A stretch of DNA of 64,000 bases, taken from assembly GCA_001899205.1 (NCBI GenBank), contig MKVL01000004.1:1-64000 (forward strand). The letters run 5' to 3'. This document shows positions 37,031 to 53,650 of this stretch, in pieces. Numbering within the stretch: the first letter of the stretch is position 1; every line of letters begins with the position of its first letter. The notes under the pieces were generated by a model that was given only the letters and a program-made list of their open reading frames with translations, made no database searches and was not told where the DNA came from. The translations under genes were made by a program, and so were the position numbers. Source of the DNA: Mesorhizobium sp. 65-26. GTDB lineage: Bacteria > Pseudomonadota > Alphaproteobacteria > Rhizobiales > Rhizobiaceae.

Positions 37031-37840
37031 TTAGGCGCGTTCGCCCTCGAGCAGCAGGGCGAGATTCTCCGCCAGCTTGACCAGGGCCGGTCCGATCTCG
37101 GAATGGGCCCGGTCCTCGGGCACGATCTCGGCGATGCCGCCGCAGGTGATCGCCACCAGCGGTGACCCGTCGCGCGGCCGGAAAGGCACGCCTACGGCAT
37201 GGATATAGCTGTGCCAGGCACCGAACGAGGTCACGTAGCCGAGCCGGTCATGCTGGGCGATCGCCTCATCGACGGTTCTTACGATGGTCCCGGCGTTTTC
37301 GGGCTCGGCCTGCCTGAGCAGTTCGATCAGCGCCGCGCGTTCGTCAGGCAGCAGGCCAGCCATGTAGGCCAGGCCCATCGACGTCCGCCAGATCGGCAGG
37401 TACGAGCCAGGGTTGAGGCGAAGCGTCACCAGGCTCTCGGAGCGGCAGTTGGCGAGATAGACCATGTTGAGGCTGTCGCGCGTGCCGATTGCCACGGCGG
37501 CCCCGGTCTGGTCGGCCAGCCGCTGCATCAGCGGCCGCGACAGATGAACCACCGCGCTCGAACTCAGCGCCGAATAGCCAAGCGCGACCGTCGCCGGTCC
37601 CAGGCTGTAGCGGCCGAGGTCCTTGTCGTAGTGCAGGTAGCCGAGCGCGCTCAGCGTATAGGTGATGCGCGACACCGTGGCCTTGGGCAGGCCGGTGCGG
37701 GCGATGATATCCTGGTTGCCGAGCGAGGAATCGCCAGGGCGGAAAGCCCGCAGGATGCCGAGCCCGCGCATCAGCGAGGAGGACAGTTGCCCGGCCTCGC
37801 CGTCGCCGTCGGCCTCGTCCCTGGATGTACGCTTGCGCAC
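37031..37840 (-). CDS. IclR-family transcriptional regulator
   Basis: The GTG at 37840 follows AAGGA at good spacing and gives 269 residues. A winged helix-turn-helix at about 25-85 (LGNQDIIARTGLPKATVSRITYTLSALGYL) precedes the IclR effector domain with MVYLANCRSES and TSMGLAYMAGL. It is transcribed divergently from the DppBCDF-like operon. A 15-base palindrome 74 bases upstream recurs upstream of the E1-binding protein operon at 53.6 kb, which suggests it regulates both halves of the island and itself. Confidence 0.9.
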   Translation of the reverse strand: MRKRTSRDEADGDGEAGQLSSSLMRGLGILRAFRPGDSSLGNQDIIARTGLPKATVSRITYTLSALGYLHYDKDLGRYSLGPATVALGYSALSSSAVVHLSRPLMQRLADQTGAAVAIGTRDSLNMVYLANCRSESLVTLRLNPGSYLPIWRTSMGLAYMAGLLPDERAALIELLRQAEPENAGTIVRTVDEAIAQHDRLGYVTSFGAWHSYIHAVGVPFRPRDGSPLVAITCGGIAEIVPEDRAHSEIGPALVKLAENLALLLEGERA

Positions 37841-37913
37841 GCTGCGGTCCTTCCGGCGGTGTCGCCCGCCATTCAGGGGCCGCTGACGCGATCCCCGGCC
37901 GGTGGATGAAAAA

Positions 37914-37928
37914 TGAAATTAAATTCCA
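37914..37928. promoter_or_regulatory. IclR-type operator, copy 1
   Basis: TGAAATTAAATTCCA is a 15-base near-palindrome in the iclR-permease divergent gap. Its complement differs from the site at 53626-53640 only at the central base. Both face genes of one importer system. Confidence 0.7.
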
Positions 37929-37931
37929 TAA

Positions 37932-37964
37932 ATATTGACAGCGCCTTTCGTGCGCTGTCAATAT
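37932..37964 (+). promoter_or_regulatory. Perfect 12-bp inverted repeat over a candidate promoter of the permease operon
   Basis: ATATTGACAGCG (37932-37943) and its exact complement (37953-37964) are separated by 9 bases. The left arm contains a consensus TTGACA -35 box (37935-37940); CAATAT at 37959-37964 is an approximate -10 box at 18 bases spacing. It lies 70 bases before the permease start, so it can be an operator that covers the whole promoter. Confidence 0.65.
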
Positions 37965-38033
37965 GCTGGCGTCGATGGCATCTCATTGCACCTTGTGCCA
38001 TCTTACGAGCCCCGTCCTTGTGAAGGTAGCCAC

Positions 38034-39047
38034 GTGTCCCGCTATATTTTGCGCCGGCTTATCGCGATGCCGTTTCTGGTGCTCGGCATCGTCACCATTG
38101 CCTTCCTGATCACCACCGTGACCAAGGGCGATCCGCTGACCGCGATCGTCGCCGAGCAGCAGATGAGCAACCCCGAAGTGGTTGCCGCGGCCAAGGCCCG
38201 CTGGGGCCTCGATCGTCCCCTGCCGGAGCGCTATATGATATATCTTGGCAATCTCCTAAGCGGCGATCTCGGCACGTCCTTCATCACCAAGCGCAATGTC
38301 GGCACCGATATCCTCTACCGCCTCCCGGCGACGCTGGAACTCGTCTTCGCGGCGATGATCTTCGGCACCGTCCTCGGCATTTCGCTCGGCGTGCTGGCCG
38401 CCTATTTCCGCAACAGCCTGATCGACCATGGCGCCCGGCTCTTCGCCCTTTTCGGCTCCTCGCTGCCGGTCTTCTGGTCCGGGCTCGGGCTGCTTTTCAT
38501 CTTCTCCGTCATCCTCGGCTGGCTGCCGGGGCCGGGGAGGCTGGATGCCCGCCTGGCGTTGCCCCCCAGCGTCACCGGCTTCCTGACGATCGATTCCCTG
38601 CTGGCCGGCGACCTCACCGTGTTCCGGGACGCGCTGTGGCATCTCATGCTGCCGGCCTTCGTGCTCGGCTGGACCGTCTCCGGCACCATATCGCGCCTGG
38701 TGCGCGCCAACATGCTGGACGTCATGAGCCGCGAGTTCGTGCTCACCGCGCGCGCCAAGGGCGCGGGCGAGTTCCGCGTCGTCGTCGTTCACGCCTTGCG
38801 CAACACGCTGGTGCCGACGCTCACCGTCATCGGCTATTCCTTCGCCTACCTGATCACCGGCGCCGTGCTCACCGAGACGATCTTCTCCTGGCCGGGCATG
38901 GGCTCCTACGCGGTGGAGGCGGCGCGCGCGCTGGATTTTCCCGCGATCATCGGCGTGACCATCGTCGGCGGCCTTGCCTTCCTGGTCACCAACCTGCTCA
39001 CCGACATTGCCTATGTCGTGGCCAACCCGCGCGTCAGGCTGGGCTAG
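38034..39047 (+). CDS. ABC importer permease, DppB type
   Basis: The start is GTG 38034, preceded by GAAGGTAG; the frame is open upstream without a better start. The 337-residue inner-membrane protein begins with the family motif YILRRLIAMPFLVLGIVTIAFL and has six hydrophobic segments and the EAA loop around VLTARAKGAGEFRVV. It is the first gene of a dppBCDF-like operon that has no binding-protein gene of its own. The likely partner binding protein is encoded at 49692. Confidence 0.9.
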   Translation: MSRYILRRLIAMPFLVLGIVTIAFLITTVTKGDPLTAIVAEQQMSNPEVVAAAKARWGLDRPLPERYMIYLGNLLSGDLGTSFITKRNVGTDILYRLPATLELVFAAMIFGTVLGISLGVLAAYFRNSLIDHGARLFALFGSSLPVFWSGLGLLFIFSVILGWLPGPGRLDARLALPPSVTGFLTIDSLLAGDLTVFRDALWHLMLPAFVLGWTVSGTISRLVRANMLDVMSREFVLTARAKGAGEFRVVVVHALRNTLVPTLTVIGYSFAYLITGAVLTETIFSWPGMGSYAVEAARALDFPAIIGVTIVGGLAFLVTNLLTDIAYVVANPRVRLG

Positions 39048-39051
39048 CTTC

Positions 39052-39894
39052 ATGTCGGTTACCGCCACCAAAACCCGTTCCGTCGTCATGCCCGAATGGC
39101 TGACCGCGCCGCTGGTCATCGGCTGCGTCGTCATCCTGTTCTGGCTGTTCATGACGGTGTTCGCGCAGTTTGTCGTGCAATACGATCCGCTCGACATGGT
39201 CGGCCGGCGACTGCAGGCGCCGAGCTGGCAGCACTGGCTGGGCACCGACGCGCTTGGCCGCGACGTGTTGAGCCGGACCTTGCACGGTGCGCTGCACTCC
39301 TTGCCGATCGCCGTCCTTGTGGTGATCTCGGCCGTGGTTATCGGCTCGCTGCTGGGCGCGATCTCCGGCTTCGTCGGCGGCCTGACGGGCGCCGCCATCA
39401 TGCGCCTCGTCGACGTGACGCTGTCCTTCCCGCCGATGCTGCTCGCCATGGCGGTGGCAGCCTCCCTCGGCCCGGGGCTGGGCAATGCGGCCATCGCCAT
39501 GGTGCTGGTCTGGTGGCCGGTCTATGCCCGGCTGATGCGGGCGCAGGTGCTGGAGGTGAAGGAGCGCGAGCATGTCGAGGCGGCGATCGCCGCCGGAGCC
39601 CGGCCGCATCGCGTTCTGTTCAAGCATATCCTGCCGCTCTGCTGGACGCCGGTGCTGATCAGCGCCACCATGGATCTGGGGCAGGTCGTGCTGCTGGCAG
39701 CCTCGCTTTCCTTCATCGGTCTCGGCGCCACGCCGCCCACCCCCGAATGGGGCTCGATGATCTCCGACGGCGCGGTGCATTTCTATCAATGGTGGATCGC
39801 CTTCGGTCCCGGCATCGCCATTCTCACCATCGTGCTCGGCTTCAACTTCATCGGCGACGGCTTGCGCGACATTCTGGATCCGAGGTCCGACTAG
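39052..39894 (+). CDS. ABC importer permease, DppC type
   Basis: The 280-residue membrane protein has the DppC/OppC motifs HWLGTDALGRDVLSR and an EAA loop around REHVEAAIAAGARPHRVLF. The ATG at 39052 lies 4 bases after the dppB-type stop. It forms the transport channel with the preceding permease. Confidence 0.92.
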   Translation: MSVTATKTRSVVMPEWLTAPLVIGCVVILFWLFMTVFAQFVVQYDPLDMVGRRLQAPSWQHWLGTDALGRDVLSRTLHGALHSLPIAVLVVISAVVIGSLLGAISGFVGGLTGAAIMRLVDVTLSFPPMLLAMAVAASLGPGLGNAAIAMVLVWWPVYARLMRAQVLEVKEREHVEAAIAAGARPHRVLFKHILPLCWTPVLISATMDLGQVVLLAASLSFIGLGATPPTPEWGSMISDGAVHFYQWWIAFGPGIAILTIVLGFNFIGDGLRDILDPRSD

Positions 39895-39897
39895 GCC

Positions 39898-40950
39898 ATG
39901 AGCGTGACCCAGCTTTCAACGGCGCCTGGCGCCTCCATCGGCGAGCCGCTGCTCTCCATTCGCGGCCTGCGCGTCGGCTTCCGGCGCGGCGGCGCCCAGT
40001 TCGAGGCGGTGCGCGGCATCGACCTCGACGTCGCCAGGGGCGAGGTCGTCGGCATCGTCGGCGAATCCGGCTCCGGCAAATCGGTGGGCATGCTCGCCGC
40101 GCTCGGGCTTGCATCCAGCAACGCCATCGTCACCGGATCGGTCCGCTTCAAGGGCGAGGAACTGGTCGGCAAGCCGGCGCGCGAGATGCGCACGATCAGG
40201 GGTGCGCGCATCGCCATGATCTTCCAGGACCCGCTGTCCTCGCTCAATCCGGTGATGACGGTCGGCGCGCAGATCGCCGAGGCGATCAGGCTGCACCAGC
40301 GCCTGACCCGCAAGCAGGCCATGGCGCGGGCCGTCGAACTGCTCAGCCTCGTCGCGATCCCGCAGCCGGAACGCCGCGTCCACCAATATCCGCACGAGTT
40401 CTCCGGCGGCATGCGCCAGCGCGCCGTGATCGCGATGGCGGTCGCCAACGATCCCGATCTCTTGATCGCCGACGAGCCGACCACGGCCCTCGACGTCACC
40501 GTCCAGGCGCAGATTCTGTCGGTGCTGCGCTCGCTGCAGGAGAGGCTGGGTCTCGGCCTCATCCTCATCACCCACGATCTCGGCGTCGTTGCCGGCCACG
40601 CCGACCGGGTGGCCGTCGTCTATTCCGGCCGCGTCGTCGAACAGGCGACAGTGACCAGGCTTTTCGCCGACCCACGCCATCCCTATACGCGCGGCCTCAT
40701 CGCCTCGATCCCCAACCTGGAGGACAGCCGCGAGCGGTTGTTCTCCATTGACGGCGCCCCGCCTGCGCTGGGCAGGCTACCGGGCGGCTGCGCCTTTCAT
40801 CCGCGCTGCGTCCACGCCGAGGCGCGCTGCCGGACCGACGATCCGCCGCTGCTCGACATTGGCGACAGGTTGTCGGCCTGCCATTTCGCGACGACGCTGC
40901 CGCCCTTTCACGGACTGGCGGCTACGGAGATCGGAAGCGTGGCATCATGA
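39898..40950 (+). CDS. ABC importer ATPase, DppD type
   Basis: The 350-residue ATPase has Walker A GESGSGKS, the signature [14 protein letters not shown] and Walker [13 protein letters not shown]. The C-terminal oligopeptide-family region contains the [14 protein letters not shown] cysteine motif, which in related proteins binds an iron-sulfur cluster. It lies 3 bases after the dppC-type gene and overlaps the next gene by 4. Confidence 0.92.
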
Positions 40951-41972
40951 GTGCGGCACAGGAAACACCCACGGGCAAGACGCCAGCGCTTTCAGTCCGC
41001 AATCTGGTGAAGGATTTCCCGGTGCGCGGCGGCCTCATCCTCGATCGCGCGGTCGCCCATGTGCGGGCAGTGGCCGACGTCTCCTTCGACCTGCCGGCCG
41101 GCGAGACGCTGGGGCTGGTCGGCGAATCCGGCTGCGGCAAGTCAACGCTCGGGCGCTGCCTGATGCGGCTCATCGAGCCGACCAGCGGCGAAAGCTGGTT
41201 CCGTGGCCAGAACATGCTCGGCCTCGACCGCGAGGCCATGCGCCAGATGCGGCGCTACATCCAGCTTGTCTTCCAGGACCCCTATGGCTCGCTGCATCCG
41301 CGCATGCGCATCGCCGACAATATCGCCGAGCCGCTGCGCATGGGCGACATGTCGGCCGCGGCGCGCCGGGCGCGCGTGGCCGAGCTCCTCGAACTGGTCA
41401 GGCTCAACCCCGAGCACGGCCGGCGCTATCCGCACGAGCTCTCCGGCGGCCAGCGCCAGCGCGTCGTCATCGCCCGCGCGCTCGCGCTCAATCCGGAAGT
41501 GGTCATTCTCGACGAGCCAGTATCGGCGCTCGACGTCTCCGTGCAGGCCGGTGTGCTCAACCTGCTCAGCGACATCCAGAAATCCTTCGGCACATCCTAT
41601 CTGTTCATCGCGCACGATCTCTCGGTGGTGCGTCACATCTCGCACCAGGTGGCGGTGATGTATCTCGGCAAGATCGTCGAGATCGCGCCGGCGGCGGAGC
41701 TCTATTCCGCCGCGCGTCATCCCTATACCCAGGCTCTGCTGTCGGCCGTGCCGCTCGCCAATCCGGAGAAGGAGCGCAAGCGCGAGCGCATCGTGCTCAG
41801 CGGCGACGTGCCAAGTCCGCTCAACCCGCCGTCCGGCTGCCGCTTCCGCACGCGCTGCTTCAAGGCTCAGGCGATCTGCGCCGCGCAGGAGCCGCCGCTC
41901 GGTCCACAGGGGGCCAGGCATCGTGTCGCCTGTCATTTCCCCGAGGCCGTCGACACCTTCAAGGCCGCCTGA
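40947..41972 (+). CDS. ABC importer ATPase, DppF type
   Basis: The 341-residue second ATPase has Walker [10 protein letters not shown], the signature [14 protein letters not shown], Walker [13 protein letters not shown] and the C-terminal [14 protein letters not shown] cysteine motif. It overlaps the DppD-type gene by 4 bases. With the two permeases it makes a complete importer core. Confidence 0.92.
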
Positions 41973-42006
41973 TGGCCGGTCTTCGCCCGACTTCTACACG
42001 CAGGAT

Positions 42007-43269
42007 ATGACAGTGACCGAAACCAATTCCAACGACGCCCCGCGCGCGCGTCTTCCGCTCGAGGGCATCAAGATCCTCGATCTGTCACGCGTCCTCGCCG
42101 GGCCGTGGGCGACGATGAGCCTGGCCGATCTCGGCGCCGAGGTCTGGAAGATCGAGAACATCGACGGCGGCGACGACACGCGGGCCTGGTCGGTGCCCAG
42201 CTACAAGGGTGTCAGCACCTATTATCTCTGCGCCAATCGCGGCAAGCAGAGCATCGCGCTCGACATGAAGAGCCCTCAGGGGCTGGAGATCGTGCGCGAG
42301 CTCGCCGCCAAAGCCGACGTGGTGGTCGAGAATTTCCGCGCCGGCACCGCCGACAGGCTTGGGGTGGGCTGGGAAGCGCTGCGCGCGGTCAACCCGCGGC
42401 TGATCTACTGCTCGATCTCCGGCTACGGCCAGACCGGCCCGGACGCGACCCGCCCCGGCTACGATTTCGTCATGCAGGCCGAAAGCGGTCTCATGGCGAT
42501 CACCGGCGAGGCCACGGGCGAACCGATGCGCGTCGGTGTCGCCATCACCGACGTGGTCTGCGGCATGGTCGCCGCCCAGTCGATCCTCGCCGCGCTGTTC
42601 GAGCGCCAGGCGACGGGCAAGGGGCAGCTCCTCGATCTCGCGCTGTTCGACTGCGCGCTGAACCTGCTGATCAATGTCGGCAGCGGCTACCTCAACACGG
42701 GACGCGAGTCGGGCCGCTTCGGCAACGCCCATCCGACGGTGGTTCCCTATCAGATCTTCGACACCTCCGACGGGCGCTTCGCGCTGGCGGTCGGCAACGA
42801 CCGGCAGTTCGCCGCCCTGTGCGAGAAGGTCGTGCACCTGCCGCATTTGGCCGAGGATCCACGCTTCATCCGGGCGGCGGGCCGCGCCACCCATCGTGAG
42901 GCGCTCATCCCCGAACTGGCGGCCGCGTTCACGGCAAAGCCGCGCGACCACTGGATGGCGGCCTGCGCGGCGGCGAGCGTGCCCGCCGGCGAGGTGAAGT
43001 CGATACCGGAAGTCTTCGACAGCCCGAATGTGCGTGAGCGCGGCGTCGTCCAGACCCCGCGGCATCCGCATCTCGGCTCCGTGTCCCTCGTGCGGCCCGC
43101 CCATGGCCTCGCCGCGCAGGCACAGGCCGACTACAGCGCACCGCCCATGCTGGGCCAGGACACCGAAGCGGTGCTGGCCGGCGTGCTCGGCTACGACGCG
43201 ACGCAGATCCAGGCTCTGATCGGCGCCGGCGCCGTCAGCGTCTACCCGGCCGCTTCGGCGACCGCCTGA
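42007..43269 (+). CDS. Class III CoA-transferase (CaiB/BaiF family)
   Basis: The ATG at 42007 follows CAGGA and gives 420 residues. Family features are the start [31 protein letters not shown] (split here by position 23 to 53), [15 protein letters not shown], and [17 protein letters not shown] near the catalytic aspartate. Such enzymes move CoA between carboxylic acids. In this operon it would activate the imported compound or a degradation product. The gene lies 34 bases after the ATPase gene and 16 before the aldehyde dehydrogenase gene, so it is probably one operon with the importer. Confidence 0.9.
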
Positions 43270-43285
43270 CCCAGGGACACACGAC

Positions 43286-44722
43286 ATGTATCCAGACGTT
43301 CTCCTGCATATCGATGGCCAATGGCGCGCCGCGCGTGGCGGTCGCACCATGCCCGTCGTCAATCCGGCGACCGAGGCCGAGATCGGCTCGCTCGCCCATG
43401 CCGGCGTCGAGGATCTCGACGAGGCGCTGGTCGCCGCCGCGAAGGGCTTCCAGGCCTGGCGGCGCGTGTCGCCCTTCGAACGCTCGAAGCTGATGCGCAA
43501 GGCCGCCAACCTGCTGCGCGAGCGCAACGAGGCGATTGCCACGATGATGACGCTGGAGCAGGGCAAGCCGGTCGCCGAGGCGCGCATGGAAGCCTTCGCC
43601 GCAGCCGACATCATCGACTGGTTCGCCGAGGAGGCGCGCCGCAGCTACGGCCGCATCGTGCCGCCGCGCTTCGACAATGTCAGCCAGCTCGTCGTGAAGG
43701 AGCCGATCGGCCCGGTGGCGGCCTTCACGCCGTGGAACTTTCCGCTGAACCAGGCGGTGCGCAAGCTTTCCGCCGCGCTCGCCGCCGGCTGCTCGATCAT
43801 CATCAAGGGGCCGGAGGAGACGCCGGCGTCGCCGGCCGAACTGGTGCGTGCCTTCATCGAAGCCGGCCTGCCCGACGGCGTGGTCAATCTGGTCTATGGC
43901 ACGCCGGCGGAGATTTCGTCCTACCTCATCCCGCATCCTGTGATCCGCAAGATTTCCTTCACCGGCTCGACGGCGGTGGGCAAGCAGCTCGCCGGCCTCG
44001 CCGGCCAGCACATGAAGCGCGCCACGATGGAACTTGGTGGCCATGCACCCGTCATCGTGTTGCCCGACGCCGACCTCGATCAGGCGGCGCGATCGATGGT
44101 CGCCGCGAAGTTCCGCAACGCCGGACAGATCTGCGTCGCCCCGACCCGCTTCCTCGTCGAGGAGAGCGTCTATGGCGCCTTCGTCGAGCGCTTCGCCGAT
44201 GCCACGCGCCGCATCAAGGTCGGCGATGGCCTGGCCGAAGGCACCACGATGGGACCGCTCGCCAACGCGCGCCGTGTCCAGGCGATGGAGGACCTCGTCC
44301 GTGATGCCGTGCAGAAGGGCGCGGAGCTGGTCACCGGCGGCAAGCGCGTCGGCAATTCGGGTTATTTCTTCGAGCCGACCATCCTGTCGAATGCCGGTAC
44401 CGACGCCCGCGCCATGAATGACGAGCCGTTCGGCCCGCTGGCGCTGATGACCCCGGTGAGCGGCCTTGACGAGGCGCTGGCCGAGGCCAACCGCCTGAAT
44501 TACGGGCTTGCCGCCTATGGCTTCACGCGCTCGTCCGTCGACGCGGCGCGCATGTCGTCCGGCATCGCCAGCGGCATGGTGTCGATCAACCACTACGGGC
44601 TGGCGCTGCCCGAAGTGCCGTTCGGCGGCATCAACGATTCCGGCAGCGGGACCGAGGGCGGCGCCGATGCGCTCGACGCCTATCTCAACACCAAGTTCGT
44701 GTCGCACCTGCAGGCTGGTTGA
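43286..44722 (+). CDS. Aldehyde dehydrogenase, succinate-semialdehyde type
   Basis: The 478-residue enzyme has the general base E249 in MELGGHAP, the nucleophile C283 in [11 protein letters not shown] and the [10 protein letters not shown] motif. It resembles GabD-like semialdehyde dehydrogenases. It follows the CoA-transferase gene by 16 bases and ends the plus-strand run of the island. A class III aminotransferase is encoded at 48351, so a transamination-then-oxidation sequence on an amino compound is possible. The exact aldehyde is not known. Confidence 0.88.
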
Positions 44723-44740
44723 GCGCTCCCCCGGCTGCGG

Positions 44741-45387: not shown

Positions 45388-45411
45388 GGTCTGTGCCTCC
45401 AAAAAACCTGT

Positions 45412-45440
45412 AAGTAAGGTAAGGTGAATTTACCTTACTT
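45412..45440. promoter_or_regulatory. vapBC operator
   Basis: AAGTAAGGTAA (45412-45422) and its exact complement (45430-45440) are spaced by 7 bases. The repeat is just upstream of vapB on the minus strand, where VapB-VapC complexes normally bind to repress their operon. Confidence 0.75.
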
Positions 45441-45477
45441 TCAATAGCGGCAGGTGAATCGTTGGCCCGGGCGAACG

Positions 45478-46125
45478 CTACTTCTGCTGGCCGTAGGTCT
45501 TGTAGCGGCCGCGGATGGCGGGAATTTCGCTGTTCTCGATCAGCACCGGCGTGCCGGCGGCGCGTGCGATCAGATATTGCCGCGCCAGCGTCTCCAGCTT
45601 CACCGTGCGGGCGAGCGCCGTGTCGAGATCCTTGCCGAAGGCGATCATGCCATGGTTGGCGAGCAGGCAGGCGGTGCGGTCTTGGAGCGCCACGACCGCG
45701 GCCTTGGCAAGGTTGCTGGACGCGAACAGCGCATAGTCCGAGCAGCGCACGTCGTCGCCGCCGAAGCCGGCCACCATGTAGTGGAAGAGCGGCATCGGCT
45801 CGCGCAGGCATGACAGCGCCACGCAATGGTCGGGATGAGCGTGCACCACAGCTCCGGCTTCCGGAAACGCCTTGTAGATCTCGGCGTGCATCTCCCACTC
45901 GCTCGAGGGCCGCAGCGCGCCTTCCCAGCTTCCGTCGAAGCGCATCGTCACCATCTGCTCGGGCCGCAGCATGGGCGAGGGTATCCCGGTGGGCGTGATC
46001 AGCATTCCTCCGCTCTCGATACGCAGGCTGATGTTGCCCGTGGTGCCGGTGTTCATGCCGCTGGCATCCATGGCCCTTGCGCCGGACACCAGGCTTGCGC
46101 GGGAATTGTCGAGGTCCATCATCAT
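45478..46125 (-). CDS. otnC: Class II aldolase, OtnC-like 3-oxo-tetronate 4-phosphate decarboxylase
   Basis: The 215-residue protein has the class II aldolase fold with GNISLRI, LITPTGI, the zinc histidines in HAHPDHCVAL and a third in LANHGMIAFG. Its partner gene otnK overlaps by 4 bases, the normal pairing in the four-carbon acid sugar pathway. There OtnC decarboxylates 3-oxo-tetronate 4-phosphate to dihydroxyacetone phosphate. A fuculose-phosphate aldolase is the alternative, but the OtnK link favours OtnC. The dehydrogenase and isomerase genes of that pathway are not in this window. Confidence 0.82.
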   Translation of the reverse strand: MMMDLDNSRASLVSGARAMDASGMNTGTTGNISLRIESGGMLITPTGIPSPMLRPEQMVTMRFDGSWEGALRPSSEWEMHAEIYKAFPEAGAVVHAHPDHCVALSCLREPMPLFHYMVAGFGGDDVRCSDYALFASSNLAKAAVVALQDRTACLLANHGMIAFGKDLDTALARTVKLETLARQYLIARAAGTPVLIENSEIPAIRGRYKTYGQQK

Positions 46126-47471
46126 GCCTTTCCTGAGGGCGGCCAGGTGCCGATCGCCGGCGCTTTCGTGCTCGGCCGCCTCATGTCTTCGAGTACGTTC
46201 GTGAATATGTCGGGCTCGCCGAGCTTGCCGGACTTCAGCATCAGCGCCAGCGGATCGGACGTATCGCCGCCGGGATAGGCGATTGCCCGCGACACGCCAG
46301 GCCCCTCATAGGCGCCCATGGCGATCCGGTCGATGCCGAGCGCCTTGACCACCGAGCCGGCGGTCTCGCCGCCGGCCACCACCAGGCGCCGCACGCCGAA
46401 CGCGCCGACGAGCAATTGCGCGATCTCGGCCAGGACCGCCTCCGCCTTCGCGGCGGCGGCTTCCCGGCCATGCGCCTTTTGCAGCGCCTCGACCTCACCC
46501 TGCGGCGCGGTCGTGGCAATGGCGATCATCTCCCCCGGCAGGTGCCGGGCGGCAAAGGCCCGCGCCTCGCCGACCACGTCGGCGCCGGCTAGCGCCTTGC
46601 CGAGGTCGATCGACAGAAGGGGGTGATGGCGCGCGAACCGGTCGAGCTGCTCGGCGGTCCGGTCGGCGACACTGCCTGCCAGCACCGCCGCCGGTCCCTC
46701 GACCGCCGGCAGCTTGGCCGTCACGAGATCGCCGGCATCGAGCAGGCCGTGGGCGATCCATGCCGGCGGCAGATGCGCGGTCACCGAGGAATTCCCGGTC
46801 ATCAGCGGCAGGTCGAAGGCGGCATCGGCGATCGCCTGCAGGTCGCGTTCGCGGATCGTGTCGGTGACCAGCAATTTCTCGCCGCGCGCCGTGCGCTCGC
46901 GCACCGCCTCGCGGATCGCCTGGGCGCCGGCGTCGACGACCGTGAAGGGTACGAGGCCGACCTTGCTCCTGCTCTGCGCGGCAAGCACCCGGACCAGGTT
47001 GGAATCGGTCATTGGCGTCAGCGGATCGAAGCGCTTCGGTGATTCGCCCAGCAACTGCGTACCGCCGAACATATGGCCCTGGTAAACGGTGCGGCCGGTT
47101 TCGCACAGCGCCGGCGTGAACAGCGTGACGGCGGCGCCCAGCCGCTCCAGCAGCGCCTCGGCGCAGGGGCCGATATTGCCGGCCGGGGTCGAATCGAACG
47201 TCGCGCAATATTTGAAGAAGATCTGCCGCGCGCCGGCGGCGAGCAGTTTTTCCGCGGCCCGCAGCACCTGCGCCACCGCGTCGGCGGCCGGGATCACCCG
47301 CGTCTTCAGGAGGATGACATGGGCGACGTTGCCGGCCTGGATCGGCGCGTCCGTCCCCACCGTGCATCCGGTGGGGATGCCCCGCGCCACCAGCATCGAG
47401 GCCAGCTCCGTGCCGCCGGTCAGGTCGTCGGCGATGGCGCCGAAAAGCAGGGGAGGGGTAGGCCCGCTCAT
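46122..47471 (-). CDS. otnK: Four-carbon acid sugar kinase, OtnK-like (DUF1537 family)
   Basis: The 449-residue protein has the family start GAIADDLTGGTELA, the KYCATFDSTPAGNIGP segment, and the C-terminal nucleotide-binding part with VVAGGETAGSVVKAL and GDTSDPLALMLKSGKLG. It phosphorylates 3-oxo-tetronates at C4. The ATG at 47471 follows GAGG. It diverges from the GntR gene across a 101-base gap that contains an AT-rich palindrome. Confidence 0.88.
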   Translation of the reverse strand: MSGPTPPLLFGAIADDLTGGTELASMLVARGIPTGCTVGTDAPIQAGNVAHVILLKTRVIPAADAVAQVLRAAEKLLAAGARQIFFKYCATFDSTPAGNIGPCAEALLERLGAAVTLFTPALCETGRTVYQGHMFGGTQLLGESPKRFDPLTPMTDSNLVRVLAAQSRSKVGLVPFTVVDAGAQAIREAVRERTARGEKLLVTDTIRERDLQAIADAAFDLPLMTGNSSVTAHLPPAWIAHGLLDAGDLVTAKLPAVEGPAAVLAGSVADRTAEQLDRFARHHPLLSIDLGKALAGADVVGEARAFAARHLPGEMIAIATTAPQGEVEALQKAHGREAAAAKAEAVLAEIAQLLVGAFGVRRLVVAGGETAGSVVKALGIDRIAMGAYEGPGVSRAIAYPGGDTSDPLALMLKSGKLGEPDIFTNVLEDMRRPSTKAPAIGTWPPSGKA

Positions 47472-47503
47472 GTGTTTTGCCTCATGTCGATGGCCATGTT
47501 GCC

Positions 47504-47519
47504 TGTGATATCATATACA
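47504..47519. promoter_or_regulatory. GntR-type operator in the otnK-gntR gap
   Basis: TGTGATATCATATACA contains the palindrome TGATATCA and, on the other strand, GTATATGATATCACA. It shares the core ATATNTGATAT with the boxes at 49597 and 53540. It lies between divergent otnK and gntR, a place for joint control. Confidence 0.65.
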
Positions 47520-47572
47520 GCCTCCGCGTGGCGCCGGCTGGACATGCGGGGCCGCAAGGACGGAGAACGAAC

Positions 47573-48310
47573 GTGACTGCCTCTATCGCGCCGATCGCGC
47601 GCGACAATCTGACGACGCGCGTTTACGAGGAACTGCGCAACGCGATGATGGAAGGTCGTTTCTGGCCCGGCCATCGCTTCAAGATCCGCGAGCTTGCCGC
47701 CAGCCTCGAGGTTTCCGAGACCCCGGTGCGCGAAGCGCTCATGCAGCTTGTCCGCGAGAAGGGCCTGGAGATGGAGGCGGGACGGTCGATCACTGTCGCC
47801 CGGCTGTCGCTCGCCCAGTATCTGGAACTGCGCAGCATCCGCCTGCACCTGGAGGGCATGGCCGGCGCCGCGGCAACCACGCGCATCGAGCCGCGCGAGA
47901 TCGACCGTCTCGCCGCTATCCACGAAAGGCTTGTCGCCAACGAGGACAACGGCCGCTGGTTCGAGGCCGTTCGCGACAATTGGGAATTCCATCACTCGAT
48001 CTATCTCGCCGCCGGCATGCCGGAACTTCTCGCCATCATCGAGGGCATCTGGCTGCGCAACGGGCCGCTGGTGAACTACCAGTACCCGCATGCCCGGCCG
48101 ACCTATGACAATCGCCATCGTCACCTCGACATCCTCGACGCGTTGCGCGCGCGTGATGAGAATGGCGTACGCAAGGGCATCCAGCAGGACATGGTCGAAG
48201 GCGGCCGGCTGCTGGTGAAGGTTCTGGAGAAGCTGAACGACGGCACGGTGACGCCCGAGGAACTGCGCAGCGCGGCCCAGAACGGCCGCGTGGTTTCGGC
48301 CGCCGGCTGA
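47573..48310 (+). CDS. GntR-family (FCD) transcriptional regulator
   Basis: The GTG at 47573 follows GGAG and gives 245 residues; the upstream frame extension lies over the operator. The winged helix-turn-helix is at about residues 10-75 (FKIRELAASLEVSETPVREALMQLV), followed by the FCD domain with the metal-ligand motif DNWEFHHSIYLAAG. Related AT-rich boxes lie in its own promoter gap, before the aminotransferase gene and before the E1 gene, so it is the likely regulator of this set. Confidence 0.88.
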   Translation: MTASIAPIARDNLTTRVYEELRNAMMEGRFWPGHRFKIRELAASLEVSETPVREALMQLVREKGLEMEAGRSITVARLSLAQYLELRSIRLHLEGMAGAAATTRIEPREIDRLAAIHERLVANEDNGRWFEAVRDNWEFHHSIYLAAGMPELLAIIEGIWLRNGPLVNYQYPHARPTYDNRHRHLDILDALRARDENGVRKGIQQDMVEGGRLLVKVLEKLNDGTVTPEELRSAAQNGRVVSAAG

Positions 48311-48350
48311 GCAGCCGGCGACCTGAGGCAGCCTCGACGCTGTCGCCAGT

Positions 48351-49580
48351 TCAGGCCGCATTCGCGGCGGCGGCCATGCCGGCGTCGGCCGCGCGCAGGG
48401 CGATGTCTATGTCCTTTTCGGTGTGCGCCGCGCTCAGGAACATGTTGTGGCGGGGGTGGAAATAGGCGCCCTCGCGCAGCGCCGCCGAGCAGAATGCGTC
48501 GGCCATTTTGAACTCGGCGTCACCGTCGAACAGCACCATCGGCATCGACACCGGACCGGTCTGGCGCAGGGCAACGCCGTGCCGCTTCGCCGCGGCGTCG
48601 AGCCCGTCGCGCAGCCTCGTCCCGGCTCTCGTCATGCGGGCGATTGCATCCTCGTCGCGCAGCGTGGTGATGGTGGCGATCGCCGCCGCCATCGAGACGG
48701 CGCCGTACCAGAACGATCCTGTGACGTAGATCTTGGTCGCGGCCTCACGGAAGCGGTCCGTGCCGGTGATGGCCGCCAGCGGATAGCCGTTGGCGATCGC
48801 CTTGCTGAAGGCGGAAAGGTCGGGCCTTACGCCGAGCGGCTCCCAGCTGCCGCCAAGATCGATGCGGAAGCCGGCCCGCACGTCATCGACGATCAGCGCC
48901 GCGTCCGCCGCCGTGGCAAGCTCACGGGCCCGCCGGGCGAAGGCAGCGGTCGGCATTTCCTGGTCGCGGGCGATGTCGTGCCGGAACGCCGTCACGATGA
49001 TGGCGGCGAGGTCGTTGCCCGCCTGCTCGACGGCGGCCTCGAGGCTGGCGACGTCGTTATAGTCGAAATGGATGAGATGCGCCCGGTCCTCGGCGGTGAC
49101 GCCGGCCAGCGAAGGCGTGCACCACGGCACCGCGCCATGGTATGAGCCGCGCGCCACCAGCACCTTGCGCCGACCCGTGCCCGCCCTGGCGATGGTCACG
49201 CAGGCGGTGGTGGCGTCAGTGCCGTTTTTCTGCAGCATCGCCCAATTCGCGTGGGCAACCGTTCCGACCAGCAACTCCGCCAACTCGACCAGCACTTCGC
49301 CCGGACCGTTCATGGCGTCGCCCAGGCGGCGCTGGCGCTCGGCCGCGGCCTCGACTGCCGGATGGTGATGCCCGAGCACGTTCGGGCCCCAGCTGCACAT
49401 CAGGTCGACATATTCGCGCCCGTCGACATCCCAGACCCGGCAGCCGTCGGCACGCTCGAAGAACTGCGGATAGGCCGAGCCGAGATAGCGGGTGGCCATG
49501 TGCCCCCACATGCCGCCCGGGATGACAGCGGCCGCGCGTTGCCGCAGCGCCATGTCCTTGGAGTTCGTCAGGGACTGCAT
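48351..49580 (-). CDS. Class III PLP-dependent aminotransferase, glutamate-1-semialdehyde aminomutase-like
   Basis: The 409-residue protein has the PLP lysine at K260 in DLSAFSKAIANGYPLA and the ring-nitrogen aspartate D232 in LIVDDVRAGFR. It also has the cofactor segment KNGTDATTACVTIAR and the N-terminal VIPGGMWGHMATRY. It resembles GSA-aminomutase-type enzymes, which in catabolic clusters often act as amino acid or amine transaminases. GGAG precedes the ATG. It has its own AT-rich operator box (49597) and lies downstream of a terminator, so it is a separate transcript. Confidence 0.88.
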   Translation of the reverse strand: MQSLTNSKDMALRQRAAAVIPGGMWGHMATRYLGSAYPQFFERADGCRVWDVDGREYVDLMCSWGPNVLGHHHPAVEAAAERQRRLGDAMNGPGEVLVELAELLVGTVAHANWAMLQKNGTDATTACVTIARAGTGRRKVLVARGSYHGAVPWCTPSLAGVTAEDRAHLIHFDYNDVASLEAAVEQAGNDLAAIIVTAFRHDIARDQEMPTAAFARRARELATAADAALIVDDVRAGFRIDLGGSWEPLGVRPDLSAFSKAIANGYPLAAITGTDRFREAATKIYVTGSFWYGAVSMAAAIATITTLRDEDAIARMTRAGTRLRDGLDAAAKRHGVALRQTGPVSMPMVLFDGDAEFKMADAFCSAALREGAYFHPRHNMFLSAAHTEKDIDIALRAADAGMAAAANAA

Positions 49581-49596
49581 CGGGAATTCTCCGCCG

Positions 49597-49616
49597 TTTG
49601 ATATATCATATATGTA
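49597..49616. promoter_or_regulatory. GntR-type operator upstream of the aminotransferase gene
   Basis: The palindrome TGATATATCA (49599-49608) is followed by TATATGTAAA. On the minus strand the site reads ACATATATGATATATCA, which matches ATATTTGATATATCA at 53540. It is 17 bases before the start codon, so binding would block initiation. Confidence 0.7.
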
Positions 49617-49624
49617 AATCGATG

Positions 49625-49654
49625 AAAAAGGGACAGTCGGTTTCCGCCTGTCCC
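49625..49654 (-). terminator. Intrinsic terminator after the binding-protein gene
   Basis: On the minus strand the arms GGGACAG and CTGTCCC (7 bases, 49654-49648 and 49636-49630) enclose an 11-base loop and are followed directly by TTTTT. It ends the E1-binding protein transcript before the aminotransferase promoter. Confidence 0.8.
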
Positions 49655-49655
49655 A

Positions 49656-49688
49656 GGGGGAAGCGACGAGCGCCGCTTCCCCCTTTTT
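49656..49688. terminator. Second hairpin in tandem
   Basis: GGGGGAAGCG (49656-49665) and CGCTTCCCCC (49674-49683) form a perfect 10-base stem with an 8-base loop. TTTTT follows on the plus strand, so it can terminate transcripts from the left as well as stabilise the 3' end of the minus-strand mRNA. Confidence 0.75.
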
Positions 49689-49691
49689 CCG

Positions 49692-51293
49692 TCAGTGGCT
49701 GATCTCGGCCAGCGGCAGGTTGCAGCAGGCGCTGTAGCGCACGCCCTGCACGTTCGACTTGTAGGCGAGGATCAGGTTCGGGCTGATCAGCGGCAGGATG
49801 ACCCTGTCCTTGATCATTTCCTCGCCAGCCTGGTGCCAGAGCTTGGCTGCCTCGTCGCCGCTCGCCGCGAGCGCCGACTTGTAGAGCTCGGACTCCTTCG
49901 GATTGAGCACCGAGGGTTCGCGTTCGGCGCCGGCGCGACGTGCCCACGGGCTGCCCTTGGTCATGCCGAAATACTCGATGTACTGCGAGGTGCCGTAGTA
50001 GTCCGGCGCGTAGAACACCGCCGTCATCGGGATGCCGTCGCCGTTGACGCGTTCACGCCAGTTGGCGAAGGGGACCGGCTGCAGGTCGAGCTTGACATTG
50101 ATCTTGGACAGGTCCTGCTGGACCTTCTGCATCAGCAGCGACAGGTCGACGCCGTAGACGTTCATGCCCGGGAAGGCGGCCTCCATCTCGAAGCCGTCCG
50201 CGTGGCCTGCCTTGGCCAGCAGTTCCTTGGCCTTGGCGATGTCATAGGGCTGTTCCTCGAAACCCGAGCCGCCGGGGAAACCGATCGGGATCGGCGCGCT
50301 GATCAGCTGGCCCTGGTCGCCAAGGGTGAAATCGAGGATGCTCTTGCGGTCGAGCGCCAGCGAGATCGCCTCGCGCACTTCCGGCGTCAGCGGCACCTTG
50401 TTGGCCTTGGCGCCGGGCGACAGTGCCACGTAGAGGAAGTTGTAGGACGGTACGGTGTCGATCTTGATGTCGCCGCCGGTAATCGTCTTGGCCGTGTCGG
50501 GGTCGATCTGCATGGCGATGTCGGCGGTGCCGTTCTGCAGCATCTGCGCCTGCGCCACCGCGTCCTTGGTCTGGCGGATGACGACTTCGCTCAGCGCCGG
50601 CTCCTTGCGCCAGTACTTGTCGTTGCGGGCCAGCCGCAGTTCCGAGTTGGGCTCGTAGGACTTCAGCACGAAAGGCGCGGAGCCGGCCGAGTGCTGCAGG
50701 AACCAGGCTTCGGCATTGTCCGTGGTGGAAGCATCCTTGTCCGCCTTGGCGCCGGCCTCGGAAGCAACCTTGCTGTTGACGATCGCGGTGTACGGCGCCG
50801 CCGCGATGTTGAGGAACTCCGAGCTCGGCGCCACCATCTTGACGACGACCGTGTGCGCGTCCGGAGCCTCGATCGAGGCCACGTTGTCCATCAGGAAGGA
50901 GGAGGAGCCCTTCAGGTTCTTCAGCCGTTCCCAGGACCATTTGACGTCCTTGGCCTCTACCGGCGAGCCGTCGGAGAATTTTGCGGCCGGATCGAGCGTG
51001 AAGGTGAAGCTCGTCTGGTCGGCGTTGCTTTCCCACTTGGAAGCCAGCAACGGGATCAGCTTGTTGTCCTTGTCCAGCGTCAGCAGCGATTCATAGACGC
51101 TCGAATTGTAGATCTGGCAGGTGTCGCAGAAGGCGCGGTGCGGATCGAGCGAGTTGAGGTCGATGTTGCGCGCGATGATCAGCGGCTTGCTGTCCTGCGC
51201 GAACGATGACGGCGCCCAGAAGGCGCTCGTGGCGAGCAATGCCGCGACGGCCGCCGCTCTCGCCTTCTTTGCTGGAAAGGTCGTTATGTTCAT
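49692..51293 (-). CDS. Peptide/nickel-type (family 5) ABC binding protein
   Basis: The 533-residue protein has a signal peptide (residues 1-32, SSFA before QD) and the family 5 solute-binding fold, with NIDLNSLDPHRAFCDTCQIY near the N-terminus and REAISLALDRKSILDF further on. It should deliver the substrate to the permease. It is the only binding-protein gene for the DppBCDF-like importer at 38-42 kb and shares an operator motif with it. It is encoded 54 bases after the E1 fusion gene, in one operon. Confidence 0.88.
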   Translation of the reverse strand: MNITTFPAKKARAAAVAALLATSAFWAPSSFAQDSKPLIIARNIDLNSLDPHRAFCDTCQIYNSSVYESLLTLDKDNKLIPLLASKWESNADQTSFTFTLDPAAKFSDGSPVEAKDVKWSWERLKNLKGSSSFLMDNVASIEAPDAHTVVVKMVAPSSEFLNIAAAPYTAIVNSKVASEAGAKADKDASTTDNAEAWFLQHSAGSAPFVLKSYEPNSELRLARNDKYWRKEPALSEVVIRQTKDAVAQAQMLQNGTADIAMQIDPDTAKTITGGDIKIDTVPSYNFLYVALSPGAKANKVPLTPEVREAISLALDRKSILDFTLGDQGQLISAPIPIGFPGGSGFEEQPYDIAKAKELLAKAGHADGFEMEAAFPGMNVYGVDLSLLMQKVQQDLSKINVKLDLQPVPFANWRERVNGDGIPMTAVFYAPDYYGTSQYIEYFGMTKGSPWARRAGAEREPSVLNPKESELYKSALAASGDEAAKLWHQAGEEMIKDRVILPLISPNLILAYKSNVQGVRYSACCNLPLAEISH

Positions 51294-51347
51294 GTCCGGT
51301 TTCTCCCATTTTGATCGGATGTTCGAGGCATTGATGTCGCTTCGCCC

Positions 51348-53519
51348 TCAGTGTTTGCCGGCGAGGGTCTGGAGCGCGGCCCTGAGCTTGTCGGCGCCGC
51401 CGAGGGCGGCCCGGTTCAGCGGGGCCGATACGACGGGCGCCGAAAGGCTTCCCGTCACATGCAGGACCTCGTGGTCGAGATAGTCGAACACACGGTCCTG
51501 AATTTCCTGCGTCAGGCGGCCGCCGAGCGACAGGCCGCGCGCGACCTGCTCGACGATCGCGACCCGGTTGGTCTTGCGGATCGAGGCTTCAACCAGCGGC
51601 CAGTCGAGACCGGTCGGATCAAGGCTGCGCAGGTCGACGATCTCGGCGTCTATGCCGGTCTCCTCGACGACCTGCCGGGCCAGCGGCACCATGCTGGCGT
51701 TGGCGAGCAGCGTGCAGGCGCCGCCCGGCCGGACGATGCGCGCCTTGCCGAGCCGCACGCAATAATCGCGGTCGCTTTCCGGCGCCGGCCCCTCCGTCGT
51801 GAACAGTTCTACATGCTCGATGACGACGACGGGATCGTTGCACTTCAGCGCCGCGTTCATCAGGCCGATATAATCGAACGGCGTGGTCGGCGCGACGATG
51901 CGCCAGCCAGGGAAGAGCGCGAACAGGCCGGACGGATCGCCCGAATGCTGCGAGCCGTAGCCGGTGTGTGGCGAGACACGTACGCGCAGCACGATCGGCA
52001 CCGGGAAACCGCCACCGAACATGTGGCGCACCTTGCTCACCGCGTTGAAAAGCTGATCGGCGGCGACGAGACAGAAGTCGCCGAACATGATCTCGACGAT
52101 CGGGCGCAGGCCGCACAGCGCCGCGCCCAGCGCCACGCCGACGAAGCCGTTCTCGGCGATCGGCATCGCCAGCACCCGCTCGGGCCAGCGCTCGAGCGCG
52201 CCCTTGGTGGCGCCGGAGACGCCGCCGCGCAGCCGGTGCACGTCCTCGCCCATGATGATGATGCGCGGGTCCTGCTCCATCGCCCGGGTGATGACTTCCG
52301 AAGCAGCGGCGATGAACTTGACCGGCTTCGTCTCGGCCGGTGGCACGTCCTCGATCTCCAGGAAGCGTTCGTCCCGCAACTCGGACAGATCGCCCCGGAT
52401 CTCATTGTCCACCTCGCCGGCGTCCGGCCAGAGGTGGTCGGGGATGCGCCGCGCATTGCCGCTGGTCTCGGTCAGCGCATCGGCGGCGGCGTCAACCACC
52501 TCCATCACACGCTGGTCCAGCGTACGCAGGCCGTCGGCATCGAGAACGCCCATCGCCTTCAGCCGCGCTGCTGCCGTGGCGATCGGGTCGCGCGCCTTCC
52601 AGGCGTCTTCCTCGGCGCGGGTCCGATAGCCGAACTCGCTGCCAGGCCGCGCGCCGCTCTGATGCAGGAAGCGATAGCAGAGCGCCTCGACCAGGACGGG
52701 GCCGCCCTCCTGCTCGATCGTGCGGCGCGCCTCGCGCATGGCCTGATGCACCGCAACGACGTCCATGCCGTCGCATTCGATGCCACGAAAACCCAGCATC
52801 GGCCCGCGCGACGCGAGCCGCGTCTCTCGCGTCTGCTCGCCGATATGGGTGGAGACGGCGTAGAGATTGTTCTCTGCGAAGAAGATCACCGGCAGACGGT
52901 AGAGCGCGGCGATGTTCATTGCCTCATAGGCGGCACCCGCCATCATCGTGCCGTCGCCGAAGAAGGCGACCGAGACATTGCCGGTGCCGAGCAGCTTGTC
53001 GGCCAGGGCGTAGCCCGCGGCATGGGGCAGGTTGCCGCCGATGATGGCGCTGGTGCCCGGTATGCCGGAAAGATCATGGCGCATGTGCATCGAGCCGCCG
53101 CGTCCGCCGCAATAGCCTGTGTTGAGGCCCATGATCTCGGCCATCAGCCCGCGCACTGCCGCTTGCATGGGATCGTCGAACGTGTCGTGCAGCGGATCGA
53201 AGCCGAGGGGTGTCTGGGCATTCACCAGCTTGGCCAGCACCTGGTGGTGGGCGCGATGCGTGCCGTTGATGCGGTCGCCCGTGCCGAGCACCGACATGGC
53301 TCCGACGGCCGTTGCCTCCTGGCCGATGCTGGCATGCGCCGGCCCATGCACGAGGCCGGCATTGGCCAGATCGAGGATCTTCTCCTCGAAGCGGCGGATG
53401 AGCACCATCTGATGGTACCAGCGCACCAGGGCCGAAGCCTCGGCGGCGTTCCAGTCGGCGTCGTCGACGTCGAGCCGCGACCAGGGCGCCGATGGCTGGA
53501 GGGAAGTCACATGGACCAT
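51348..53519 (-). CDS. 2-oxoacid dehydrogenase E1, fused alpha and beta subunits
   Basis: The ATG at 53519 gives 723 residues. The first half is E1-alpha with the thiamine diphosphate motif from G188-D189-G190 (VAFFGDGTMMAGAAYEA) to FFAENN, and GGRGGSMHM. The second half, from about residue 400, is E1-beta (MGEDVHRLRGG, RPIVEIMFGDF, HSGDPSGLFALFPGW). A fused E1 of this kind occurs with branched-chain, acetoin or other 2-oxoacid substrates. No E2 or E3 gene lies in the island, so it either borrows subunits or acts as a decarboxylase. Two different operator types lie upstream. Confidence 0.88.
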   Translation of the reverse strand: MVHVTSLQPSAPWSRLDVDDADWNAAEASALVRWYHQMVLIRRFEEKILDLANAGLVHGPAHASIGQEATAVGAMSVLGTGDRINGTHRAHHQVLAKLVNAQTPLGFDPLHDTFDDPMQAAVRGLMAEIMGLNTGYCGGRGGSMHMRHDLSGIPGTSAIIGGNLPHAAGYALADKLLGTGNVSVAFFGDGTMMAGAAYEAMNIAALYRLPVIFFAENNLYAVSTHIGEQTRETRLASRGPMLGFRGIECDGMDVVAVHQAMREARRTIEQEGGPVLVEALCYRFLHQSGARPGSEFGYRTRAEEDAWKARDPIATAAARLKAMGVLDADGLRTLDQRVMEVVDAAADALTETSGNARRIPDHLWPDAGEVDNEIRGDLSELRDERFLEIEDVPPAETKPVKFIAAASEVITRAMEQDPRIIIMGEDVHRLRGGVSGATKGALERWPERVLAMPIAENGFVGVALGAALCGLRPIVEIMFGDFCLVAADQLFNAVSKVRHMFGGGFPVPIVLRVRVSPHTGYGSQHSGDPSGLFALFPGWRIVAPTTPFDYIGLMNAALKCNDPVVVIEHVELFTTEGPAPESDRDYCVRLGKARIVRPGGACTLLANASMVPLARQVVEETGIDAEIVDLRSLDPTGLDWPLVEASIRKTNRVAIVEQVARGLSLGGRLTQEIQDRVFDYLDHEVLHVTGSLSAPVVSAPLNRAALGGADKLRAALQTLAGKH

Positions 53520-53539
53520 GAAGGCTTTTTTCGCTCTGG

Positions 53540-53560
53540 TAGATGATATATCAAATATTG
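53540..53560. promoter_or_regulatory. GntR-type operator upstream of the E1 operon
   Basis: TGATATATCA (53544-53553) is the same 10-base palindrome as at 49599, with AATATT beside it. On the minus strand it reads CAATATTTGATATATCA. It lies 25 bases before the E1 start codon. Confidence 0.7.
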
Positions 53561-53618
53561 GTTCGATCGAATGTGTTCTGTCGTCTGTTCCTGCACCCGG
53601 CATGGGTTCAAAGGGAAT

Positions 53619-53650
53619 GTGCAAATGGAATTAAATTTCATTTTTTGCAC
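53619..53650. promoter_or_regulatory. IclR-type operator, copy 2, inside a larger inverted repeat
   Basis: TGGAATTAAATTTCA (53626-53640) matches the complement of 37914-37928 at 14 of 15 bases. It is enclosed by GTGCAAA and TTTGCAC, which makes a 32-base interrupted palindrome about 107 bases before E1. The rest of the gap to the UDP-glucose dehydrogenase gene (53651-53938) shows no gene and no clear promoter. Confidence 0.7.

Follow-up and report, generated by a model that had tools for sequence, protein, structure and literature searches.

We analysed the first 64 kb (the window) of contig C4 of the 6.84-Mb genome of Mesorhizobium sp. 65-26 (G000), a soil bacterium with legume symbionts among its relatives, in which 13 genes at 37031-53519 form one conserved unit, here called the island. 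A preliminary description of this DNA had proposed that the stretch is one catabolic unit under two operator types, and every gene that it named is present. Genes were called from open reading frames (ORFs) and from Pfam and NCBIfam profile scans with curated score cut-offs. The genes, with the names used below, are the following.

37031-37840, minus strand: IclR-family regulator (Pfam IclR_C and HTH_IclR)
38034-39047, plus strand: DppB permease (Pfam BPD_transp_1; 95-96% identity in 11 island relatives)
39052-39894, plus strand: DppC permease (Pfam BPD_transp_1; 91-94% identity in 11 island relatives)
39898-40950, plus strand: DppD ATPase (Pfam ABC_tran and oligo_HPY)
40947-41972, plus strand: DppF ATPase (Pfam ABC_tran and oligo_HPY)
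42007-43269, plus strand: class III CoA-transferase, SUGCT-like (CoA_transf_3, 424 bits)
43286-44722, plus strand: aldehyde dehydrogenase (ALDH), like succinate-semialdehyde dehydrogenase (Aldedh, 525 bits)
45478-46125, minus strand: class II aldolase, FucA-like (Aldolase_II, 177 bits)
46122-47471, minus strand: OtnK, 3-oxo-tetronate kinase family (NF043035, 408.5 bits, cut-off 350)
47573-48310, plus strand: FCD/GntR-type regulator (GntR-family NCBIfam model, 110 bits, under the cut-off of 225)
48351-49580, minus strand: class III aminotransferase, FumI-like (Aminotran_3, 140 bits)
49692-51293, minus strand: family-5 substrate-binding protein (SBP; SBP_bac_5, 260 bits)
51348-53519, minus strand: fused E1 (alpha-beta), a thiamine-diphosphate enzyme (E1_dh, Transket_pyr and Transketolase_C)

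The E1 ORF extends to 53624, and the start at 53519 was chosen after the relatives. By direction and spacing, the transcription units are iclR (minus), dppBCDF-CoA-transferase-ALDH (plus), otnK-aldolase (minus), gntR (plus) and E1-SBP-aminotransferase (minus). The IclR protein scores 119.1 bits with the PcaR/PcaU/PobR model (TIGR02431), under its cut-off of 284.75; it is 80-82% identical in 10 relatives and is found as two pieces (89% and 75%) in locus L040. The GntR-type regulator is 93-94% identical in island relatives, and GntR and FCD domains were seen in a protein 59% identical to it.

The conservation of the island was examined in a panel of 121 genomes, our own and 120 relatives. Orthologues of the aminotransferase (at least 89%), the CoA-transferase (at least 81%) and the fused E1 (89%) pick out the identical 13 genomes; each query also matches six further genomes more weakly, and these are not the identical six. 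Twenty stretches were fetched from relatives, and 12 of them (L031-L042) are of the island type, with L032 ending at a contig edge. Homologous loci with the genes always scattered had been named in the preliminary description as the result that would speak against one island. What was found is the order IclR-DppBCDF-CoA-transferase-ALDH-aldolase-OtnK-GntR-aminotransferase-SBP-E1 in all 11 relatives whose stretch covers the island; L035, one of the 11, gave no ALDH match. The flank beyond IclR is common to 10 of the 11 relatives, with 79-82% DNA identity over 0.8-1.4 kb and no match with L042, and the relatives share no flank with the window beyond E1.

Operators and regulation of the island

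Operator A (ATGGAATTWAATTTCAT) has two exact matches in the genome, both in the island, one before iclR/dppB and one before E1. Two mismatches add two genomic places (on contigs C10 and C25), and the reversed control pattern gave none. Operator B (ATWTGATATATCA) likewise has two exact genomic matches, both in the island, one before E1 and one before the aminotransferase, which has its own operator inside the E1-SBP-aminotransferase unit. If one mismatch is allowed, operator B gains a site within dppB (38233) and three more on contigs C3, C32 and C35, and the control gave none. The conservation of the sites was surveyed in 13 loci, the window and L031-L042, with the following results.

37913-37929: operator A copy 1 (ATGGAATTTAATTTCAT on the minus strand), iclR/dppB intergenic region; in 12 of 12 loci with the region
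37934-37962: inverted repeat ATTGACAG-N13-CTGTCAAT; arms and spacing constant in 12 of 12 loci with the region, spacer variable
47505-47519: operator B variant (TGTATATGATAYCAC on the minus strand), between gntR and otnK; in 13 of 13 loci
49599-49611: operator B, exact, aminotransferase promoter; in 13 of 13 loci
53544-53556: operator B, exact, E1 promoter; in 13 of 13 loci
53625-53641: operator A copy 2, E1 promoter; in 13 of 13 loci

Exactly two operator A sites are found in each of the 12 loci that span both promoters, and one in the contig-cut L032. Around operator A, 22 bp are invariant in all 13 E1 promoters and 21 bp in all 12 iclR/dppB regions, and the adjacent bases drift. The inverted repeat beside copy 1 may represent a pair of -35 boxes that face each other in divergent promoters that overlap.

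The E1 promoter bears both operator types in 13 of 13 loci. Because this promoter carries both A and B, the two halves of the island are probably one regulon. The kept gene order and the conserved operators bear out the single unit that had been proposed at the outset. The regulon is well supported; the chemistry that it would serve we infer. In each case the divergent promoter of the regulator gene contains the site, and from this position we predict that operator A is bound by IclR and operator B by the GntR-type regulator. IclR would control uptake (DppBCDF and the SBP), the CoA-transferase, ALDH and E1, and the GntR-type regulator would control the OtnK-aldolase pair, the aminotransferase and E1.

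Enzymes of the island and their relatives

The best solved relative of the aminotransferase is FumI (6hbs), with 449 bits over residues 8-404, against 167 bits for the next best; no other solved protein matches below E 1e-100. FumI comes from the fumonisin and hydrolysed fumonisin B1 catabolism of Sphingopyxis sp. MTA144. The C3 carbon of hydrolysed fumonisin B1 bears a hydroxyl. FumI takes off the C2 amino group of this 2-amino-polyol (PMC2933618; PMC4843849), and a step of this type is proposed below for the island. Although FumI is the closest solved aminotransferase and the alignment is near full length, it sits elsewhere in the aminotransferase tree than the window protein. The fum cluster presumably holds a thiamine-diphosphate enzyme and an ALDH as well.

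GTDB was scanned with an alignment of five aminotransferases. At E 1e-3, relatives are encoded by 585 of 596 pattern matches, a figure in which other class III aminotransferases may be included. The best 80 loci span Pseudomonadota, Actinomycetota, Acidobacteriota and Myxococcota, and were scored with a panel of window proteins and proteins of the cousin clusters described below; the contigs of L056, L057 and L124 are identical to those of L037, L042 and L049. Absences in the 80 loci are uncertain, because just 53 of the stretches reach 18 kb and 27 are shorter. A thiamine-diphosphate enzyme (E1 or a split transketolase) is present in 25 of the 80 loci, DppB in 21, OtnK in 15 and the aldolase in 21. 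OtnK and a thiamine-diphosphate enzyme occur together in 14 of the 15 OtnK loci (Fisher 4e-8), or in 10 of 11 after removal of the four island loci (3e-6), values that are a guide only because the loci are not independent. Distances in 41 genomes point the same way: OtnK matches of at least 46% lie within 20 kb of the aminotransferase in 7 of 7 cases and weaker ones in 0 of 16 (two are at 29 and 31 kb), and transketolase-N matches of at least 45% do so in 4 of 6. Both cut-offs were set after the lists had been seen, and the OtnK count excludes the second half of a gene that is split between contigs.

The thiamine-diphosphate enzymes do not follow a single aminotransferase lineage. E1 proteins of at least 63% go with two separate aminotransferase clades, that of the window and that of L047, L100 and L124, which lies in the same half of the tree as FumI. 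L044 and L062, at a third place in the tree, have a split transketolase plus a more distant E1. Amide hydrolases recur in the aminotransferase loci, namely a penicillin amidase (L066), an amidase (scanned in L068 and clustering in 14 loci) and a dimethylformamidase-like protein (8 loci). These would fit some family members starting from N-acylated amines. Acyl-CoA dehydrogenases in L064 and L082 were considered for naming the acid, and this was dropped because they pass no listed cut-off.

The E1 sequence contains GDG...NN, which we take to be the thiamine-diphosphate motif. Its domains score highest with pyruvate dehydrogenase models of NCBIfam. The E1 trees, for which 16 of 17 fetched comparison loci yielded a match (own_C12 being the exception), give no backing for grouping the fused E1 with dehydrogenases of the pyruvate or acetoin type. 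The enzyme resembles the acetoin dehydrogenase complex (AcoABC-Lpd) in that it is a thiamine-diphosphate E1 of the alpha/beta type and that cousin clusters carry an AcoC-type E2, but it is fused and stands in its own clade. AcoC-like proteins of at least 76% (76-100%) occur only in G043, G007 and G063, on the cousin contig in each, and matches of 33-45% occur in 15 other genomes, including 4 island genomes. Our genome has 17 E1_dh matches (about 14 strong separate genes) against 10 E2 (PF00198) matches including fragments, and because the former outnumber the latter, several of its E1 genes may work without a dedicated E2. The contig itself begins within an E2 (2-oxoacid_dh) gene (14-529), for which profile positions 58-231 alone matched.

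The remaining enzymes resemble known families to different degrees. The best solved relative of the CoA-transferase is 10uh (616 bits). It is in the same class III family as the glutarate/dicarboxylate CoA-transferases (SUGCT; 346 bits to 9br6), but with the curated SucGlutTfsCaiB model (NF052585) it scores 374.8 bits and fails the cut-off of 750. ALDH scores 476 bits with the succinate-semialdehyde dehydrogenase model (TIGR01780) and fails its cut-off of 646. The pair had been labelled OtnC/OtnK in the preliminary description; the OtnK label holds (408.5 bits, cut-off 350), and the OtnC label is imprecise, with 106.7 bits for the OtnC model (NF043034, cut-off 250) against 171-179 bits for FucA models. 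Neither FucA model was passed (NF005984, 179.4 bits, cut-off 264; TIGR01086, 171.3 bits, cut-off 400.25), and by score the aldolase appears nearer to fuculose-phosphate aldolase (FucA) than to OtnC. The island is like the threonate and erythronate pathways for four-carbon acid sugars (OtnK-OtnC) in its OtnK, which passes the family cut-off, but unlike them in its aldolase. Enzymes of the LtnD, DenD or OtnI type were not among the annotated island genes, and no search aimed at them was made.

Related clusters, transport and neighbouring genes

A cousin cluster lies on one contig of G043 (L054, L053 and L136), rearranged, with most of the kit together at 50-76% identity. The identities to the window proteins are 58% for IclR, 66-76% for DppBCDF, 69% for the CoA-transferase, 59% for OtnK, 63% for the aldolase, 65% for E1 and 59% for the SBP. 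Its first part holds ECH-HCDH-E1-SBP-class IV aminotransferase, a FumI-like aminotransferase (50%) and aldolase-OtnK-shikimate-dehydrogenase-like protein. The rest holds a split transketolase, two monooxygenases, the CoA-transferase, DppFDCB, a divergent IclR, an AcoC-type E2 and an acyl-CoA dehydrogenase, and an ALDH match (73%) lies about 7 kb beyond IclR. The E2 adjoining the cousin iclR scores 363 bits with NF011457 (cut-off 307).

Operator A is exact before the cousin ECH-HCDH-E1-SBP operon in four genomes (L047, L048, L049, which equals L124, and L100), and with one mismatch it lies between iclR and dppB in L136 and L139. Sites like operator B, with one or two mismatches, were found in L051 and L062. 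L137 has operator A sites with one mismatch immediately upstream of the CoA-transferase and upstream of a monooxygenase that shares 65% identity with a protein of the NtaA/DmoA family; with up to two mismatches allowed, neither L137 nor L138 showed operator B.

No DppA gene lies in the dpp operon. The E1-linked SBP probably supplies this role, because SBP relatives directly precede dppBCDF in other aminotransferase loci (L061, L063, L072, L074 and L117). In the SBP alignment, unusual conserved cysteine motifs are seen near the N terminus (CDTCQ, 11 of 11) and near the C terminus (RYSACCNL, 10 of 11). An AlphaFold model of the SBP (mean pLDDT 78.9) was uninformative as a ligand clue, because the 50 Foldseek matches listed of 660 are family-5 binding proteins of 17-24% identity with many ligands.

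The window alone carries a VapBC-like module within the island, made up of the following two ORFs.

44741-45139, minus strand: VapC-like PIN toxin ORF (PIN, 25.4 bits, cut-off 23.6)
45136-45387, minus strand: AbrB/VapB-like antitoxin ORF overlapping the VapC start (from reading frame and position; family read by eye)

The gap between ALDH and the aldolase is 762 bp in the window versus 20-81 bp in the 10 relatives with both genes, and no such module was seen in those 10. From this comparison we regard the module as an insertion in this strain, outside the pathway. Just upstream of it, a perfect inverted repeat (AAGTAAGGTAA at 45412-45422 and TTACCTTACTT at 45430-45440) was noticed by eye. On the other side of the island, IclR is adjoined by a glycoamylase-type gene (PF10091, 35547-36899). 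The neighbour at 34028-35566 is E3-like by Pfam; an E3 role was dropped, with 728 bits for the NCBIfam FAD-containing oxidoreductase model (cut-off 620) and 330 bits for lipoamide dehydrogenase (cut-off 409).

Candidate substrates and pathways

We tentatively favour the reading that the island is a single catabolic regulon whose substrate is a vicinal amino alcohol, R-CH(OH)-CH(NH2)-R', taken up from outside, and give it somewhat less than an even chance. Acetoin dehydrogenase and transketolase both cleave next to the carbonyl of an alpha-hydroxyketone. The substrate would be imported by DppBCDF with the E1-linked SBP, and the FumI-like aminotransferase would turn the amine into an alpha-hydroxyketone. 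The fused E1 would then cut the bond between the carbonyl and hydroxyl carbons, in the manner of acetoin dehydrogenase or transketolase, and release an aldehyde, R-CHO. ALDH would oxidise the aldehyde, and the CoA-transferase would activate the acid for beta-oxidation, a proposed fate for which the cousin E1 operon carries genes (ECH/HCDH). OtnK would phosphorylate the small fragment, either free or on an acceptor, and the aldolase would then split or decarboxylate it to give dihydroxyacetone phosphate. An alpha-hydroxyketone product would explain why E1 and the split transketolase are interchangeable beside the aminotransferase, and why an AcoC-type E2 stands in the cousin cluster.

An amino acid or hydroxy acid had been suggested earlier as the substrate, with a C4 sugar-acid branch for the OtnC/OtnK pair. 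In the corresponding pathway, the aminotransferase would yield a 2-oxo acid, E1 would carry out an oxidative decarboxylation with borrowed E2 and E3, and OtnK and the aldolase would work on an unconnected C4 sugar acid, with the regulators shared. The pyruvate dehydrogenase scores of the E1 domains fit this, as do the E2 genes elsewhere in the genome (the 10 PF00198 matches, fragments included). We nevertheless consider it unlikely as a whole. The aminotransferase, FumI/GSAM-like in type, is closest to FumI (449 vs 167 bits), and a thiamine-diphosphate enzyme is near in 25 of the 80 loci; both make an amino acid a less likely substrate than a vicinal amino alcohol. A split transketolase occupies the place of E1 in many related loci, and transketolase is usually inactive on 2-oxo acids; the island also lacks an E2. 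A separate C4 branch is less likely because 14 of the 15 OtnK loci hold a thiamine-diphosphate enzyme, so that OtnK is not independent of it.

That link could take another form, which we regard as rather improbable: the thiamine-diphosphate enzyme may move a two-carbon ketol unit onto glyoxylate to give 3-oxo-tetronate, OtnK would phosphorylate this, the FucA-like enzyme would decarboxylate the product to dihydroxyacetone phosphate, and the aldehyde would pass to ALDH and the CoA-transferase. Such an acceptor would account for OtnK and the aldolase accompanying the thiamine-diphosphate enzyme in alphaproteobacterial amine-degradation loci. A route through the kinase and the aldolase is similarly doubtful. 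Here OtnK would phosphorylate a ketose-like 1,3,4-trihydroxy-2-ketone at C1 and the FucA-like aldolase would yield dihydroxyacetone phosphate and R-CHO, leaving E1 or transketolase for another stereoisomer or product. The aldolase scores nearer to FucA than to OtnC, adjoins OtnK in the window and its relatives, and is found in 14 of the 15 OtnK loci. On the other side, OtnK passes the cut-off of the 3-oxo-tetronate kinase family, which is known for acids, and its link to the thiamine-diphosphate enzyme would need another reason. Finally, it is very improbable that two unrelated sets of catabolic operons are neighbours by chance. Two regulators are present, and relatives of the CoA-transferase (in G012 and G071) and of E1 (in G013 and G048) stand apart from the rest, but the E1 promoter has both operators in every one of the 13 loci, the transporter is divided between the two halves, and the cousin clusters hold the parts together.

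Several observations weigh against the amino alcohol reading. Both domain trees set the fused E1 apart as a separate deep clade; it is only 30-38% identical to other E1s and no nearer to the AcoC-adjacent E1s than to the rest, so acyloin cleavage is not shown by the E1 itself. There is no E2 in the island, the AcoC-type E2 has no match in our own genome at E 1e-40, and 4 of the 13 island genomes have just a 35% relative of it. No thiamine-diphosphate enzyme is seen in the stretch examined of 55 of the 80 aminotransferase loci, and 2 of the 6 transketolase-N matches of at least 45% are not near the aminotransferase. No ALDH match was found in L035 and L058, and the cousins of the L047 type showed no operator B when up to two mismatches were allowed. 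Relatives of single island genes also have other company. The CoA-transferase relatives (67-69%) in G071 and G012 stand with an NtaA/DmoA-like monooxygenase (L137 8526-12645; L138 7698-17358) in genomes where, at the thresholds used, neither the aminotransferase nor E1 has a match, and this set may be a second pathway that shares the regulator and the CoA-transferase. The E1 relatives (49%) in G013 and G048 are in genomes with no aminotransferase match.

The literature search, with most subscription journals outside it, gave no description of this gene combination, of the proposed series of reactions or of the variant with glyoxylate. Chloramphenicol-type (nitrophenylserinol) catabolism was considered as a model for an aminotransferase with a transketolase and was dropped, because the enzyme set differs: the available part of the source has a GMC oxidoreductase and an L-threonine aldolase and mentions no aminotransferase, transaminase, transketolase or thiamine (PMC13400229). 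If the vicinal amino alcohol reading is true, a good part of the aminotransferase loci would be a bacterial route to vicinal amino alcohols with exchangeable thiamine-diphosphate enzymes, either a fused E1 or a split transketolase. The two operators and the SBP make the question of the substrate directly testable by growth, reporter and ligand screens.

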